A stretch of 64,000 bases of DNA. It comes from Candidatus Mediterraneibacter norwichensis (GTDB taxonomy: Bacteria > Bacillota > Clostridia > Lachnospirales > Lachnospiraceae). Location: the NCBI GenBank assembly GCA_019112765.1, contig DXIU01000040.1:1-64000 (forward strand), given 5' to 3'. The notes beneath the pieces are model-generated. The model did not search any database, was not told the DNA's origin, and saw only the letters and a list, made by a program, of their open reading frames with translations. Shown here piece after piece: positions 4,831 through 61,801 of the stretch (positions are counted from its first letter, which is position 1; each line of letters opens with the position of its first letter). The translations under genes and the position numbers were made by a program.

Positions 4831-6213
4831 TTATTCTTTTGCTGTATTCCCGTAATACTGGTCTAAATATTTGTCGTCGATTCGTTTGAGTTCGGTCCGT
4901 GGAAGCATACGGAGAAGTTTCCATCCGATATCCAGTGTTTCTTCGATGTTCCGGTCTGTATGGTATCCCTGAGATACGTATTCCTGCTCGAATGCGTCGG
5001 CGAATTTTGCGTACATCAGGTCAATTTCTGTCAGTGCCGCCTCTCCGAGAATCACCATCAGTTCTTTCGCGTCTTTTCCGCGCGCATAGGCGGCAAAGAG
5101 CTGATTCATCGTATTGGAGTGGTCCGCTCTTGTCTTTCCTTCTCCGATTCCCTTATCTTTCAGACGGGACAGGGAGGGCAGCACGTCGATGGGCGGCATG
5201 ATCCCCTTCCGGTAAAGTTCCCGGCTTAAGATGATCTGGCCTTCTGTAATGTATCCTGTCAGGTCGGGTATTGGGTGGGTTTTGTCGTCCTCCGGCATGG
5301 TCAGGATGGGGATCATGGTAATACTTCCCTTTTTTCCGTTCTGCCGTCCGGCTCTCTCATAGATGGAGGCCAGATCTGTGTACATATAGCCGGGGTATCC
5401 TCTTCGTCCGGGCACTTCCTTGCGGGCCGCGGACACTTCCCGGAGGGCGTCTGCATAGTTTGTGATATCCGTCAGAATGACAAGCACATGCATCTCTTTT
5501 TCAAAGGCCAGATACTCGGCTGCGGTCAGCGCCATTTTCGGCGTGGCAATCCGCTCAATGGCCGGATCGTTGGCCAGATTGATAAAGAGAACGGTTCTGT
5601 CAAGGGCGCCGGTTTCCCGGAAACTTTCAATAAAGAAGTCAGACTCCTCAAATGTAATACCCATGGCAGCAAATACAACGGCAAAATTTTCATCCTTTCC
5701 AAGTACCTTTGCCTGTCTGGCGATCTGCGCTGCCAGCTGCGCGTGGGGCAGGCCGGAAGCAGAAAAGATAGGCAGCTTCTGCCCCCGGACCAGAGTATTG
5801 AGTCCGTCGATAGCGGATACCCCTGTCTGAATAAATTCCTCAGGATAGCTTCTGGCCGCCGGATTCATGGGCAGACCATTGATATCCATGCGGGCTTCCG
5901 GAAGAATCTCCGGGCCCTCATCAATCGGCCGCCCCAGTCCGTCAAAGACGCGGCCCAGCATATCTTCCGATACGCCCAGCTCCATGCTCCTGCCCAGAAA
6001 ACGCACCTTGCTGTTGGACAGGTTAATTCCTGTGGAGCTTTCAAAAAGCTGTACCAGAGCGTCTGTGCCGTTGACCTCAAGCACCTTGCACCGGCGGGTC
6101 TCGCCGCCGGCCAGTTCGATCTCTCCCAGTTCGTCGTAAGTCACATGCTCTACACCGCGCACCAGCATCAGCGGTCCGGCTATTTCCTGAATGGTTCTGT
6201 ACTCTTTGGGCAT
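4831..6213 (-). CDS. atpB: V-type ATP synthase subunit B
   Basis: [34 protein letters not shown]...[18 protein letters not shown]. Confidence 0.97.
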
Positions 6214-20021: not shown

Positions 20022-20287
20022 GCTCGTGCAGCCGGGGTGTTAGCGGTACCTTGTACCTGCAATCCGCTATAGCAGGGGTGATATTGCGCAGAGGGCGGCA
20101 GTCTGCAGGGCTGCCCCCGGTAAGTGACGTTGATGTCCGGGTCTCACGCGACGGGAACCTGTGAACCGTGTCAGGCCGGGAACGGAGCAGCACTAAGCAG
20201 GACCTTCCGGGTGCCGTGAGGGTGCCTGGGCTGAGTTAACTGCCGGGGTAACGCCTGTGGACCAAGTTCGAAGCGCAATGCACGCAA
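20022..20287 (+). ncRNA. ffs: Signal recognition particle RNA, large bacterial type
   Basis: Conserved core GTGAACCGTGTCAGGCCGGGAACGGAGCAGCACTAAGCAGGA; flanking Alu-domain sequence. Boundaries approximate. Confidence 0.93.
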
Positions 20288-54578: not shown

Positions 54579-56978
54579 TTATTTGTCTTCCGGTAAATGC
54601 CATTTCCAGTCTCTGATCTCCGGCATATCAATACCGTTGTCATGGATGTACTGCTTGTGCTCAACCAGCTTGTCGTTCATCTGCTGAATCAGATAAGAAC
54701 CGCGGTTTCCGAGCTGCGGCAGTGCTTTGATAGCATTCTTTACAAGGTTGAATCTGTCAATCTCATTCTGAACACGCATATCGAACGGTGTTGTGATTGT
54801 TCCTTCTTCCTTGTATCCGTATACTCTGATGTTCTTGTTCGCACGTCTGTATGTCATCTCGTGAATCAGAGTATGATAGCCGTGGAATGCGAAGATAATC
54901 GGCTTGTCTGTTGTAAACAGAGCGTTGTACTCTGCGTCTGTCAGACCGTGCGGATGTTTTGTATGCTCTTCCAGTTTCATCAGGTCAACTACGTTGACAA
55001 CGCGGATCTTCAGTTCCGGAAGTGCGTCACGCAGGATTGTTACAGCTGCAAGAGTCTCAAGTGTCGGTGTGTCGCCGCAGCATGCCATTACGAGGTCCGG
55101 CTCCTGTCCCTGATCGTTGCTTGCCCAGTTCCAGATACCGATACCCTGTGTACAGTGTTTTACAGCCTGCTCCATTGTCAGCCACTGCTGTCTCGGATGC
55201 TTGGAAGCTACGATTACGTTTACATAATCTCTGCTTCGGATACAGTGATCGAAGCAGGACAGCAGACAGTTCGCATCCGGCGGAAGGTAAAGACGTACTA
55301 CGTCTGCCTTCTTATTGGCAATGTGATCCAGGAATCCGGGATCCTGATGTGTAAATCCGTTGTGATCCTGCTGCCATACGTTGGATGACAGGATCAGGTT
55401 CAGGGATGCAATAGACTGTCTCCACGGCAGCTGATTGCAGACTTTCAGCCATTTAGCGTGCTGAGCGCACATGGAATCTACTACACGGATAAATGCTTCG
55501 TAGCTTGCGAAGAATCCATGACGTCCTGTCAGCAGATATCCTTCCAGCCATCCCTCGCACATATGCTCGCTGAGCATGGAGTCCATAACACGTCCGTCAG
55601 CTGCAAGGAATTCGTCTGTATCATATTTTTCACCGTTCCAGTCACGGTTTGTAACTTCGAATACTTTTCCGAGACGGTTGGACATTGTCTCATCCGGTCC
55701 GAAGATACGGAAGTTTCTTTCTTTCTCGTTCAGTTTGAAGATATCTCTTACGAATCCGCCAAGCTCGATCATATCCTGAGCCTCAACAGCGCCCGGAGCC
55801 GGTACGTCAACCGCGTAATCACGGAAGTCCGGAAGTCTCAGGTCACGAAGCAGCTTACCGCCGTTTGCATGCGGGTTGGAACCGATTCTTCTGTCGCCCT
55901 TCGGAGCCAGCTCTTTGAGTTCCGGAATCAGTCTTCCGTTCTCATCAAACAGCTCTTCCGGATGATAGCTCTCAAGCCAGTCTTTCAGGATCTGAAGGTG
56001 TTCCGGCTTGTCCATCATGATCGGCACCTGATGTGCACGGAAGGAATCTTCAATCTGAGCTCCGTCAACTACCCTCGGGCCTGTCCATCCCTTCGGTGTA
56101 CGAAGAACGATCATCGGCCACTTCGGTCTTGTTGTGTCATCGTTCTCTCTTGCGTTCTTCTGGATCGCCTTGATGTCGTCCATAGCTTTGTCAAGAGCCT
56201 CTGCCATCTTTCTGTGCATAGCCATGTGGTCGCTTCCGTCATCCTCTACCTCTACGAAATACGGCTTCCATCCGCATCCGTCGAAGAAGTGCTCCAGTTC
56301 CTCATGAGAAACACGAGCCAGTACAGTCGGGTTGCTGATCTTATATCCGTTCATGTGAAGAATCGGAAGAACAGCTCCGTCTGTCTTCGGGTTCAGGAAT
56401 TTGTTGCACTGCCATGATGTTGCCAGCGGTCCTGTCTCTGCCTCGCCGTCTCCGACGATACATGCTGCGACAAGATCCGGGTTGTCAAATACTGCACCGA
56501 ATGAATGAGCCAGTGAGTATCCAAGCTCACCACCCTCGTTGATGGAACCCGGTGTCTCCGGAGCAACGTGGCTGGAAATACCGCCCGGGAATGAGAACTG
56601 CTTGCACAGTTTCTTCAGTCCGTCCATATCCTCTCCGATGTTCGGGTATACTTCGCTGTATGTACCCTCAAGGTATGTATTTCCTACGAAGAAGTTTCCG
56701 CCGTGTCCCGGTCCGGAAATAAGGATCATATCCTGATCGTATTTTTTAATTACTCTGTTCAGATGAACATAAACAAAGTTCTGTCCAGGTACAGTTCCCC
56801 AGTGTCCTACGATTTTCTTTTTAACATGATCCATTGTCAGCGGCTCGCGCAGAAGCGGGTTATCCAGAAGGTATAACTGAGCTGCGCCGAGATAGTTTGT
56901 AGCACGCCAGTACGCATCCATCTTTTTCAGATAGTCTTCAGTGATCGGCTGCTGTTCAACAACATTGTTCTCTGACAT
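54579..56978 (-). CDS. Xylulose-5-phosphate/fructose-6-phosphate phosphoketolase
   Basis: [25 protein letters not shown]...[20 protein letters not shown]...ISGPGHGG. Confidence 0.97.
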
Positions 56979-57107: not shown

Positions 57108-58067
57108 TCAAAAACTGAACTTTCTGTCAATTTCTGTAATCAGGCTGTCACCCGACAGGTCATTCTCTCTCATATCAATCCTGCGGATCCGGCTGTCCTC
57201 ATAGGTCTTGTAGTAATAGATTCCTCTGCCGGCATTTACACAGCAGGAATATGTGGTAATATCCCAGGTTCCACGGGGCGTTACTACGGACCCCCTCACC
57301 ATGGACACCCCGTCCAGAATATGAAAAAACTGAGACACATTTTCCTCCTCCGTGCTGCCGCTGACAGAATTCCACTTCAGAAAAGCTGCCCGTATGAAGC
57401 GGGATACAGAGGAGGCATCACCCGGCAGGCCGGCAGCTCCCACTCCCTGCGAGCAGGGTTTCAGTTCCAGACCGGCGGCAAACCGGTTTACCGCCGGCGC
57501 TGCCTGCAGATTCAGATACTGATTCAGATTCCACCGGTGGTATTCAAAGGGCGGATTATTTGTCAGAACTCCGATAGGATTATCCAGAATATTCAGGCCC
57601 GTTCTGACCGGTTCCAGCACAAGACACTTCCGGCCGTCAGCCAGCATCCAGTGGAGGGGAGCCGGGGGCAGGCCGGCAGAAAACGCGGCGTCTGTGACGC
57701 ACGTATTCTCCAGAAGCTCTGCCGCCTCCTCCACAGAGCCGCAGCTTCCCAGTATCCAGGGAATCATTTCAAACGAAGCAGCGTTGAACATCCCTGCCTC
57801 TTCTTTCCGATAAACGGCATTGTCAGGAAAATTCAGCCCGGCCATGCACAATCCCTTTTCATTGACCGCCTCCGCATAAAGCGGAAATTTCTCCGGTGCC
57901 GCTGCCATTCCGATCATTGCATAGTGCTCTTTCAGCACGGGCAACCGGGTAAAACGCAGGGGGAACCGGCGGGGCGTAATCACCACATGCTCCCCGAAAG
58001 AAACGTCCAGATCCAGATTTCTCCCGAAATAAAACGCTCCGTTTTCACAGGTAATACAGGTACACAT
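57108..58067 (-). CDS. Choloylglycine hydrolase family / bile salt hydrolase-like, Cys2 nucleophile
   Basis: MCTCITCENGAFYFGRNLDLD...EKGLCMAGLNFP...VLTNNPPFEYHRWNLNQY...LPGDASSVSRFIRAAF; GGAGG RBS before ATG at 58067. Confidence 0.93.
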   Translation of the reverse strand: MCTCITCENGAFYFGRNLDLDVSFGEHVVITPRRFPLRFTRLPVLKEHYAMIGMAAAPEKFPLYAEAVNEKGLCMAGLNFPDNAVYRKEEAGMFNAASFEMIPWILGSCGSVEEAAELLENTCVTDAAFSAGLPPAPLHWMLADGRKCLVLEPVRTGLNILDNPIGVLTNNPPFEYHRWNLNQYLNLQAAPAVNRFAAGLELKPCSQGVGAAGLPGDASSVSRFIRAAFLKWNSVSGSTEEENVSQFFHILDGVSMVRGSVVTPRGTWDITTYSCCVNAGRGIYYYKTYEDSRIRRIDMRENDLSGDSLITEIDRKFSF

Positions 58068-58163
58068 AAACCATTTCCTCCAGTCTGCTTCCTCCATGCA
58101 TAAAGCGCCTCCGGCAAAAATGCCGGAGGCATCTGTATCCAGTATTACCCGCCTGCAGAGATT

Positions 58164-59303
58164 TTAATCTCTGTCAAACTTTGTGACAATCATATGAACA
58201 ATATAAGGAATAAGAATTACCGGTATCGCCAGGTAAGCAATGGCACTGTACGCCTTCTGAATCAGAGTCAGCAGCCCGAACTGGGCAATTCCGAAATCAA
58301 TGACGCAGCACACAAGGGCGGCAGCAATCTCTTTCCTGGAAATCTGAAATCTTTTCTTTGCTCCGTCAGAAACTTCCTTTTTCCTCCCGGATTCGCCGCA
58401 CACACGCTTCACCATGGCCGCAACCATATTAACCGCTGTGGATACTGCGCCCAGAATAATCAAAATCGAAATCAGCGGAGTCATAAACGAAGCCCCCACG
58501 CCGTTCTGCACCATAAATAATGTAGGCACGCTCTGCTGTGCCGCGTCCGGATTCGTGTAAATTGTCATAAGTCCCAGCACAACCATGACCATCATCAGAG
58601 AATTCACTACAAATCCCGCTCCCATACTCTTCACCGCGTCTCCCGGTTTTTCAAAGGATCTGGCATGCTGGACGAAAACCGCGATATTGGACAGCTGAAA
58701 CGTTCCATACAGGAACGCGGAGTAGAGCGCGTCTCCCAGAGGCAGCTGTTCTGCCGTCATGCTCCCGGCCGCAGCCGTAATCTCTGAAAAATTAACTGCG
58801 ATATTCGGAATATATACAATCAGAAGTCCCGCGATAATACATATGGACAGAACCGAAGCAACTCTGCGTACCAGATCTGTGCCGAAAATCGCAACAATAA
58901 AAATAAAGAGTCCGATCAGGAACGTACACAGCAGATACGGAAGCCCTGTCAGAGTACTGAGCGTCGCGCCGCCGGTGGCAAAAGCAACAGCCGGAGCCAC
59001 ACACATTACGCAGATATACAGCACTTCAAACAGATTGGAAAAAACCGGTGCAAATCTGCCGTAAAATGCGTTATTATATGAGCGGTAATCGTACACCTCA
59101 TGCTTTCTGGCAAACCGGAGACTGTACGCGAAAAAGACGGTATTGTACAGCATGGCAAGAACCGGCATGATCAGACACCAGATTCCGTATCTCACAAAAT
59201 AACTGTAGATCTGCGCTCCGGAGGCAAATCCACCTCCGAAATGTGTTGTAAACCATACAAATGATACGCCGAGGATAATGGCGCCTGTCTTATTTTTCTT
59301 CAT
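58164..59303 (-). CDS. YkvI-like membrane protein (putative transporter)
   Basis: KTGAIILGVSFVWFTTHFGGGFASGAQIYSYFVRYG, about 10 TM segments. Confidence 0.8.
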   Translation of the reverse strand: MKKNKTGAIILGVSFVWFTTHFGGGFASGAQIYSYFVRYGIWCLIMPVLAMLYNTVFFAYSLRFARKHEVYDYRSYNNAFYGRFAPVFSNLFEVLYICVMCVAPAVAFATGGATLSTLTGLPYLLCTFLIGLFIFIVAIFGTDLVRRVASVLSICIIAGLLIVYIPNIAVNFSEITAAAGSMTAEQLPLGDALYSAFLYGTFQLSNIAVFVQHARSFEKPGDAVKSMGAGFVVNSLMMVMVVLGLMTIYTNPDAAQQSVPTLFMVQNGVGASFMTPLISILIILGAVSTAVNMVAAMVKRVCGESGRKKEVSDGAKKRFQISRKEIAAALVCCVIDFGIAQFGLLTLIQKAYSAIAYLAIPVILIPYIVHMIVTKFDRD

Positions 59304-60399
59304 TGTCTTTTCTCACTCTTTCTTTCAGTTTATCCATTGCGTCAGCCAGCATCTCTTTTGTCACTCTGTAAGGATAATGGTCCACATCTGACATGTCCGG
59401 GATCCGCTCCATACACTCTTCCCACTCTTCCTCCGTGATCTCAATCTCATCCAGAGATACCGGCAGGTGAACTGCTTTGTTCAGCCTGTAGATCTTTTCA
59501 AACTCGTCATACTGCTGATCCGCCAGCAGGGCGATAAGAACGCCGAAACCTACCACCTCACCGTGAAGGTGTTTTTCCTCGATCACCGGATATACAGTCA
59601 TCGCATAGAAAATCGCGTGGGCCAGGCCGCTGTTGTAATCCGGCGTATAATCTTTGGTCAGGAAAATAGACGCGATTCCGGTGGTCACCACAATCGCCAG
59701 AACCACCTGTTCCACATCATAGGTACAGAGTCCCTTTCTGTGATCCTCAAGAGCCTTCGGCCCGTACTCGATCAGAGGCTCGCAGCACATACGGCTGACC
59801 GCCACGCCCAGCGCGGTAAAATGCTCCAGCCGTTCGTCTCTCGATGAAATCGTCGCCTCATAATATTTCGCATAGGTATCGCCGATTCCCGCCCACATAT
59901 ACTGGCTGGGCGCCTTTGCGATAATCTCCGTATCAATGAACGAATGCATGACCGGCCTGACAAAGAAATGAGGCTTCAGAAATGTCCCGTCCTCATTGTA
60001 CATAATTGAAACAGACGTACAGGCGGAGCAGTTTGAGGCAATGGTCGGGAAAGCAAACACCGGCTTATCATCTGTAATGCACAGGCACTTCACCGTATCA
60101 AGGGCCTTTCCGCCTCCTACGCCGAACACCATATCAGCCTCCTGATATACCGGCATGGCACGGAGTTTTTCCACTGTGGCATAAGTACAGTTTTCTCCGT
60201 AGATCTCTTTGCCAATGATTTCAAGATTTGTCTGTTTTACATAAGATTCTATTTTGTCACAGGCGGCTTCCAGAGCTTTCTTTCCGCCGATTACAAGGAC
60301 TTTCTTTCCGTAGGACTCGCACACCGGTCCGATTTTGTCATAGATTTTATCACCGATGGAATAATTCGGAAGATGTACTTCATAGTTTTCCAGTTTCAT
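59290..60399 (-). CDS. Iron-containing alcohol dehydrogenase family (GldA-like)
   Basis: DMVFGVGGGKALDTVKCLCITDDKPVFAFPTIASNCSACTSVSIMY; AAAGGAGA RBS before ATG at 60399. Confidence 0.9.
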   Translation of the reverse strand: MKLENYEVHLPNYSIGDKIYDKIGPVCESYGKKVLVIGGKKALEAACDKIESYVKQTNLEIIGKEIYGENCTYATVEKLRAMPVYQEADMVFGVGGGKALDTVKCLCITDDKPVFAFPTIASNCSACTSVSIMYNEDGTFLKPHFFVRPVMHSFIDTEIIAKAPSQYMWAGIGDTYAKYYEATISSRDERLEHFTALGVAVSRMCCEPLIEYGPKALEDHRKGLCTYDVEQVVLAIVVTTGIASIFLTKDYTPDYNSGLAHAIFYAMTVYPVIEEKHLHGEVVGFGVLIALLADQQYDEFEKIYRLNKAVHLPVSLDEIEITEEEWEECMERIPDMSDVDHYPYRVTKEMLADAMDKLKERVRKDNEEK

Positions 60400-60469
60400 A
60401 TTGATCTGTCTCCTTTCATCTGCGGGACCGGACCCGCCGGCGCCTGCGCCGTCATCCCCGGCTTTTTCC

Positions 60470-60765
60470 ACAAAAGAAAAAGCCCCTGTCCCATACAATT
60501 CTATTGCAGGGACAAGAGCGTTCATACAATCAACTCCTGCGGTGCCACCCGGCTTGATGCAGATCACTGCACCCTCTCACGCATACTGACATATGCTTTC
60601 TTTGATAACGGAGTCCAGTCTCCGGCTTGCCTACTCTGTAATTCAGCTCGCCCTCAAAAGCCCATTCACTCCAGTTCCGTCATACCGCGATTCCACCATC
60701 CGCGGCTCTCTGTAAAGCATTACTGAAGTTACTTGCTCTTTCTCAACGGTTTGATAAAACTTTAC
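60470..60765 (-). promoter_or_regulatory. T-box riboswitch with terminator, probable Trp (UGG) specifier
   Basis: Minus strand: CAGAGAGCCGCGGATGGTGGAATCGCGGTATGACGGAACTGGAGTGAATGGGCTTTTGAGG...AGCCGGGTGGCACCGCAGGAG... then terminator GTCCCTGcaatagaattgtatGGGACAGGGGCTTTTTC. Confidence 0.9.
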
Positions 60766-60838
60766 CACTCAAAAAAGAAAATGTCAATTTTATTTATACT
60801 CTGTTATTATATTCTCTCTGTTCAGCCCTTCCTGGTTC

Positions 60839-61801
60839 TTACGCCTTCCGGTGTTTAACGCATATACAGTCCGCCAGTTTTCTTGCTCCCTTAAATACTG
60901 CTTTGTCGGCCTGCATTGTTATATAAGCCAGCATTAGTATAACTGCGTACATGGGTATGTACCACCGTATTCCCGGATCCCGAACCGAAAAAAATATTTT
61001 ATAGACAATCAGATGGACCAGATACAGCTCAAATGTCATCTGATTAAAAAATTTCAGGATTCTGCTGTTAACCCTCACTCTTAGCGTAAACAGATATATC
61101 AGAACAAGGAAACTCACAGGACAGATATACTGAAGCTGACGAACTCCCTGGCGGTATTTCCATTCAATAACCAGAAATACCGCCGTGGCAGCCAGCAGCC
61201 ATATGTCTCTGCCTTTCTCTGTTTTTTTATCAATCTGCTTTTTATAAAGCGCCGTCAGCTCGCCAATCGCAAAACAAAAAGCCGTGTTATACCACCAGGT
61301 TCCCCTGTCTGCCGCAATACAAAGGCCAATATAGATTATCGGGTTCAGTACAATCCAGATCAGACTGCCCTTCAGATATTTTCTTCCGATCCAGAAGCAT
61401 ACATAACAATACAGAATAATTGCCACAAACCAGAGCTCTCTTCCATTTGGATAACAGAACCTCAGAGCAGCTCTGACAATATCCGCCGCATTATAATCTG
61501 TATGAAAAAATATATTATTGATCACGGTGACAACCGTTCCCGATACAAGAAAGATCAGAATCAGATGAAATACCTTATTCAGCCAGAATCCTTCAAAATA
61601 CTGTCTTCCCTTTTTCTGAAACCGGACTGTCAGTCCATACCCGGACATAAACAAAAAAACTGCAACGGCAAGCTGTCCTGTATTTGCAAAAATCAGGGAC
61701 AACATCCTGTTATCCGAGTAAAACGTCAGATGATAAAGCATCACAACAACAGCCGCTGCCCCTTTCAGACAATCCGTCGTGTTTTTCTCCACACAGATCA
61801 C
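60839..61801 (-). CDS. Acyltransferase family membrane protein (acyltransferase 3 type)
   Basis: LKGAAAVVVMLYHLTFYSDN...FLFMSGYGLTVRFQKKG...LWFVAIILYCYVCF. Confidence 0.88.
   Translation of the reverse strand: MICVEKNTTDCLKGAAAVVVMLYHLTFYSDNRMLSLIFANTGQLAVAVFLFMSGYGLTVRFQKKGRQYFEGFWLNKVFHLILIFLVSGTVVTVINNIFFHTDYNAADIVRAALRFCYPNGRELWFVAIILYCYVCFWIGRKYLKGSLIWIVLNPIIYIGLCIAADRGTWWYNTAFCFAIGELTALYKKQIDKKTEKGRDIWLLAATAVFLVIEWKYRQGVRQLQYICPVSFLVLIYLFTLRVRVNSRILKFFNQMTFELYLVHLIVYKIFFSVRDPGIRWYIPMYAVILMLAYITMQADKAVFKGARKLADCICVKHRKA

Follow-up and report, generated by a model that had tools for sequence, protein, structure and literature searches.

Which tRNA is read by a T-box leader that stands ahead of an alcohol dehydrogenase, a putative transporter and a bile salt hydrolase, and how far along these genes does its control extend? 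The question arises from a 64,000-nucleotide stretch of Candidatus Mediterraneibacter norwichensis (positions 1 to 64,000 of contig DXIU01000040.1, assembly GCA_019112765.1; hereafter the window), where the three genes follow one another on the minus strand. The original prediction, made from the letters of this stretch, proposed a tryptophan (Trp) T-box whose starvation response would include both amino acid uptake and the bile salt hydrolase (BSH). The analysis described here leads to a narrower answer: a tRNA-Trp-responsive T-box probably attenuates a two-gene operon for Trp salvage, formed by an iron-containing alcohol dehydrogenase (Fe-ADH) and a YkvI-like transporter, and the BSH is a neighbour outside the conserved response. 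The features that carry this reading are the following.

60759..60787, minus strand: promoter-like element ahead of the leader, TTGACA-17-TAAAGT (TG precedes the -10 hexamer), 10/12 consensus positions, ending 4 bases before the T-box
60505..60755, minus strand: T-box leader, tRNA-Trp-specific, with specifier UGG and bulge UGGC, identified by RF00230, host tRNA-Trp and related leaders
60472..60519, minus strand: intrinsic terminator of the leader, GCUCUUGUCCC...GGGACAGGGGC then UUUUUCUUUU, identified by sequence, fold and d-score
59290..60399, minus strand: Fe-containing, glycerol-dehydrogenase-like alcohol dehydrogenase of 369 residues, identified by PF00465 and by glycerol dehydrogenases of the PDB
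58164..59303, minus strand: YkvI-like membrane transporter of 379 residues, with 80 relatives, a confident structural model and APC/LeuT-fold matches in the PDB

Comparison with the Rfam covariance model RF00230 aligned the leader over all 219 model positions (1-219), with a score of 91.5 bits and E=1e-20. The gathering score of this family is 93, and the T-box is absent from a default Rfam scan because its match falls 1.5 bits short of that value; among the 12 RF00230 matches found in the whole genome at E up to 0.001, it ranks eighth. The sequence of the specifier loop in Stem I is AGUGAA-UGG-GC, and UGGC forms the bulge that pairs with the acceptor end. The terminator at the end of the leader combines a stem of 11 bp or more with a U-run and reaches a d'Aubenton-Carafa d-score of +31; its 5' strand, UUGUCCC, is at the same time the 3' strand of the antiterminator in the RF00230 alignment, so that the two structures are mutually exclusive. 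The RF00230 match, the promoter upstream and the terminator downstream bear out the presence of a T-box before three genes of the same strand, as originally predicted.

The tRNA that the leader reads can be examined in the host itself, whose tRNA-Trp (L222) has the anticodon CCA, the acceptor AGGGGAU/AUCCCCU and the discriminator G73: the specifier UGG matches the anticodon and the bulge UGGC the discriminator. GAA-UGG is found in all of the 56 comparable leaders with the exact core motif, a set that includes the host's other Trp T-box, and the next base is G in 45 of them and A in 11; UGG is the specifier in all 54 relatives that carry the exact T-box core. The bulge is UGGC in 52 of the 55 leaders that head the cassette and UGGU in the remaining 3, a U facing G73 being an established variant, found in 46% of Trp T-boxes according to TBDB (PMC7778990). 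The second Trp T-box (L217; G000:C88:5420-5666, minus strand) is 81% identical to the window leader and precedes the gene of a TrpB-like pyridoxal phosphate enzyme (NF009057, 692 bits). A shift of one base would give another specifier, AUG for methionine (Met) in the -1 frame and GGG or GGA for glycine (Gly) in the +1 frame, where a Gly codon occurs in every leader; yet the possibility that the T-box reads either of these tRNAs is close to negligible. Gly via GGG, the sole alternative fitting the codon letters, fails because the host tRNA-Gly(CCC) has U73 and would require the bulge UGGA, whereas all the bulges surveyed are compatible with G73; moreover, the sister leader of the same genome sits before a TrpB-like gene. 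Both the Gly and the Met specifiers were accordingly discarded on the basis of the host discriminators, the bulge survey and the invariant UGG. The argument by which Trp had been assigned, namely that G73 belongs to tRNA-Trp and not to tRNA-Gly, is valid in this host, and the assignment is upheld by the agreement of specifier, bulge, host tRNA and related leaders. Another T-box of the genome (L228; G000:C63:5740-5975, minus strand) lies before genes resembling 2-oxoacid:ferredoxin oxidoreductase, and its specifier may be AUC (Ile).

The succession of T-box, Fe-ADH and YkvI-like transporter is a conserved cassette. Its relatives are 80 loci drawn from 85,462 prokaryote species: the exact T-box core precedes the ADH-transporter pair, or the transporter, in 54 of them, and Rfam recognised a T-box in two more (L071 and L084), both read as UGG, for a total of 56/80; other loci of the set end early at contig ends. 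Lachnospiraceae account for most of the species, and some records bear the titles Agathobaculum, Flavonifractor, Butyricicoccus or Gemmiger. Across the family ADH and transporter are neighbours, whichever of the two comes first. The Fe-ADH and YkvI-like pair behind a T-box was not found in the T-box papers searched, and the literature searched contained no paper combining YkvI and T-box; a gene pair of this kind behind a Trp T-box is apparently undescribed so far.

The Fe-ADH starts at the ATG at 60399, behind AAAGGAG, rather than at the GTG at 60567 where the open reading frame mechanically begins, and it belongs to PF00465 (70.9 bits; cut-off 31.3). Its identification as the glycerol dehydrogenase GldA was rejected, since NF006941 gave 206 bits against a cut-off of 336; NF007880, which we take to be named after E. 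coli ybdH, gave 151.6 bits against a cut-off of 429. The transporter frame, starting at 59303, overlaps that of the ADH by 14 bases, and for this reason the two genes very likely share one transcript. The transporter matches no Pfam or NCBIfam model; the name YkvI, given in the original prediction, finds no support in these families, and "YkvI-like" is kept here as an unconfirmed label, no comparison with B. subtilis YkvI having been made. Its predicted structure is of good quality (mean pLDDT 90) and resembles BasC, LAT1, LAT2 and AdiC in Foldseek with probability 1.00 and TM-scores of 0.6-0.7, at a low sequence identity of 10-18%; Trp-bound LAT1 and LAT2 are among these matches. The predicted fold points to an amino acid transporter of the APC/LeuT type.

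Genome context suggests the purpose of the pair. No match for IGPS/TrpC occurs in the window's genome, whose completeness is rated at 100%, and TrpA is found only as a relic, corresponding to profile positions 189-257 and lying between unrelated genes (L237, about 5040-5245; G000:C14:17044-17241); the trp operon has apparently decayed. Because TrpC is missing and the other Trp T-box stands before a TrpB-like enzyme, the cassette most likely serves Trp salvage. According to the established T-box model, uncharged tRNA-Trp would pair with UGG and UGGC, the antiterminator would form, and the ADH and the transporter would be transcribed. Either Trp itself or a precursor of indole type would then be imported by the transporter; a possible role of the dehydrogenase is to oxidise a 2-hydroxy acid, for example indolelactate, to the 2-oxo acid, and an aminotransferase might convert the latter to Trp. 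The BSH would be a lineage-specific neighbour behind this operon; it may receive read-through, yet it does not belong to the conserved Trp response. Uptake induced by Trp starvation, as originally proposed, is plausible for an APC/LeuT-fold transporter in a TrpC-less genome; the inclusion of the BSH in the same response is not supported, as described below.

In Alkalispirochaeta alkalica (L091:308-7372), a 53%-identical YkvI-like transporter is found in a gene cluster resembling that of (R)-2-hydroxyisocaproyl-CoA dehydratase, together with its activator and two family III CoA-transferases. This cluster and E. coli ybdH are the leads from which the 2-hydroxy-acid role of the ADH was proposed. 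The ybdH gene codes for a putative alcohol dehydrogenase and is regulated by MetJ together with the methionine aminotransferase gene mtnE (PMC3228920). The ybdH-mtnE pair of enterobacteria resembles the window operon as a putative alcohol dehydrogenase that adjoins an aminotransferase and is controlled by shortage of one amino acid; it differs in the use of a protein repressor instead of a T-box, in responding to Met and not to Trp, and in having no transporter in the E. coli pair, while the kinship of ybdH and the window ADH rests on the sub-threshold NF007880 match. The pair could instead import Trp itself, the ADH having a separate role unconnected with 2-hydroxy acids. We give this explanation a little under an even chance: it fits the predicted APC/LeuT fold, and T-boxes are frequent regulators of amino acid transporters, among them the Trp T-boxes that precede NSS and ABC transporters (PMC2494555); conversely, that ADH and transporter remain neighbours in either order suggests a common pathway.

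Beyond the salvage pair, the same strand continues with the BSH and a phosphoketolase.

57108..58067, minus strand: bile salt hydrolase of 319 residues with Cys2, identified by NF038245, catalytic residues and BSH matches in the PDB; outside the conserved cassette
54579..56978, minus strand: phosphoketolase (PF09364/PF03894/PF09363), the neighbour of the BSH also in G040 and G021 (L182, L211)

The identity of the BSH, already recognised from its residues, is secure at the level of family models: NF038245 gives 402.6 bits, above the cut-off of 350, the Pfam CBAH match has E=2.3e-88, and the best PDB match is a bile salt hydrolase (E=6e-95). Cys2, Arg16, Asp19, Asn79 and Asn171 are present, as well as the Arg of SRFIRAAF, at 223 or 226. 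The coding sequence was taken to begin at an internal ATG, at 58067, the only start that puts Cys after Met; the frame start at 58097 is too early. Judged by family score and structure matches, the protein is probably an ordinary BSH: its match to the choloylglycine hydrolase family (PF02275/NF038245; Lactobacillus salivarius type, 4wl3) is full-length, over 310 residues, with the catalytic residues kept, and compared with known bile salt hydrolases it is unusual only in its position behind a Trp T-box operon.

This position is found in no other related locus. In 15 of the related loci, which all come from close relatives on contigs shared with the genus set of the window, a BSH precedes the cassette on the same strand, and this upstream location puts it outside the control of the T-box leader; no BSH adjoins the cassette in the remaining 65, some of which are cut short by contig ends. 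The window is the sole related locus with a BSH after the YkvI-like gene, and the sequence following the transporter varies from genome to genome. Among the 59 BSH matches in the fetched loci, a redundant set in which the upstream stretch is often short, a T-box core upstream was detected only in the window's own genome. Thus, a conserved T-box-BSH operon was rejected, no second example being found among the relatives. The BSH had been taken for a member of the Trp response; it is downstream of the T-box in no relative, upstream where the two are linked, and of a separate lineage, so that the comparison with relatives does not support that claim. In L022 and L024, two close relatives containing BSH, ADH and transporter, no T-box is detectable between BSH and ADH.

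The closest relative of the window BSH, with 74% identity, is found in G040, where the order is DAHP synthase, BSH, phosphoketolase, and in whose genome the cassette was not detected. The window has the same flanking genes, in the order DAHP synthase, acyltransferase, T-box, ADH, transporter, BSH, phosphoketolase. The phylogenetic tree joins the window BSH to that of G040 (100/98) and separates it from those BSHs that precede T-boxes; on this evidence, the window BSH as a relocated copy of the upstream BSH of sister species was discarded. Because the G040 BSH stands between DAHP synthase and phosphoketolase without the cassette, the adjacency of BSH and cassette looks lineage-specific. The simplest reading is that the cassette was inserted between DAHP synthase and BSH in the lineage of the window; its loss in G040 is a possible alternative. 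Close to the end of the G040 BSH (L182:3581-4537), the aligned stretch contains a single in-frame TAA. An acyltransferase-3 gene (window 60839-61801) lies between DAHP synthase and the cassette; it was considered as a member of the latter and rejected, as no other fetched locus contains it. At 57064-57036 the phosphoketolase has a separate promoter-like site.

Several findings weigh against a Trp-salvage operon that leaves the BSH outside. The Fe-ADH scores under the cut-off of every NCBIfam subfamily, which concerns the assignment of its substrate. Ten further loci searched with Rfam showed no T-box, so that at least ten loci have the gene pair with no detectable T-box. In the genus, trpC is present in 17/24 genomes with the cassette and in 21/34 without it; as most of the former keep trpC, the cassette is not tied to auxotrophy, and the idea that it substitutes for Trp biosynthesis was dropped, no clear association with trpC being seen. 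No terminator stands in front of the BSH, so that read-through is possible. Finally, BSH and cassette have become neighbours on two occasions in the genus, with the order reversed and the BSH lineages distinct (L183-L197 versus window 57108-60755); this could hint at a link, and no fair probability can be assigned to such a double encounter after the fact.

The spacer between the YkvI-like gene and the BSH bears directly on read-through.

58109..58132, minus strand: spacer hairpin, GCCTCCGGCATTTTTGCCGGAGGC then GCTTTATGC, with a strong stem and a poor U-tract
58161..58189, minus strand: possible separate BSH promoter, TTGTCA-17-TAAAAT, over the YkvI stop codon, 10/12 consensus positions

It is possible, though on balance doubtful, that the T-box transcript runs through the BSH, which in this species would then be induced by Trp starvation, as a matter of regulation only. 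The gap between the two genes, on the same strand, is 96 bases; its hairpin folds well (z=-6.8) and was rejected as an intrinsic terminator because of the poor U-tract and a d-score of -12, below the terminator threshold, and, as no terminator is visible in the spacer, co-transcription is possible in this one genome. Moreover, the same BSH lineage in G040 has a TATATAAT-like leader, which is absent in the window. An independent BSH promoter in or near 58068-58163 had been foreseen as evidence against co-transcription: no clear promoter lies inside this interval, and a weak site is present at 58189-58161, 122 bases before the BSH, with a score that about 3% of shuffled versions of the 200 bases upstream also attain. 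This site argues against read-through, as do the gene order, shared by no relative, and the near-perfect promoter (11/12) that at least 8 relatives have for an unrelated gene after YkvI. Hairpin and promoter-like site are both weak evidence, and we regard it as rather unlikely that shortage of charged tRNA-Trp would raise BSH by read-through and so tie bile acid deconjugation or re-conjugation to amino acid supply.

A stronger proposal makes the BSH a functional partner of Trp salvage, which would free Trp from N-acyl-Trp, such as Trp-conjugated bile acids, or make such conjugates. The recurrence of BSH as a cassette neighbour, upstream in one set of species and downstream in the window, with distinct BSH lineages, speaks for it; the absence of BSH next to the cassette in most related loci, contig ends permitting, the escape of the upstream BSHs from T-box control and the score of the protein as an ordinary BSH speak against it, and make it very unlikely. 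For T-box, BSH and tryptophan together, only general reviews were found in the literature searched; a link between Trp and bile acids is speculation, and the idea of Trp-conjugated bile acids finds no support in the present data.

The preferred reading, a Trp-salvage operon with the BSH as neighbour, can be placed among known systems. Known Trp T-boxes (RF00230 and the Trp class of TBDB; those of NSS and ABC transporters, and TrpX of Streptococcus suis) have in common with the window leader the AGUGAA-UGG loop of Stem I, the AGAGA apical motif, the bulge UGGN, the intrinsic terminator and a downstream transporter; what sets the window leader apart is the Fe-ADH and YkvI-like pair that it heads. 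Control of a trpB-like gene by a Trp T-box has been reported in Dehalococcoides (PMC2494555), and the sister leader on C88 is the corresponding case here: the salvage context is alike, with the close identity of the C88 leader given above, and the downstream genes differ. Elsewhere in the window, positions 20024-20285 code for an ordinary bacterial large signal recognition particle RNA (RF01854, 192.8 bits).

The link with BSH would matter only if read-through is true, and so far a single genome supports it. The Trp T-box, instead, is a functional hint for the transporter family and for the Fe-ADH, both of which should act in Trp acquisition, in a cassette common to many gut Lachnospiraceae and some of their neighbours. 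Indole compounds are exchanged among gut bacteria and between these and the host, and an importer and a dehydrogenase induced by Trp starvation would make the salvage of indole acids testable.

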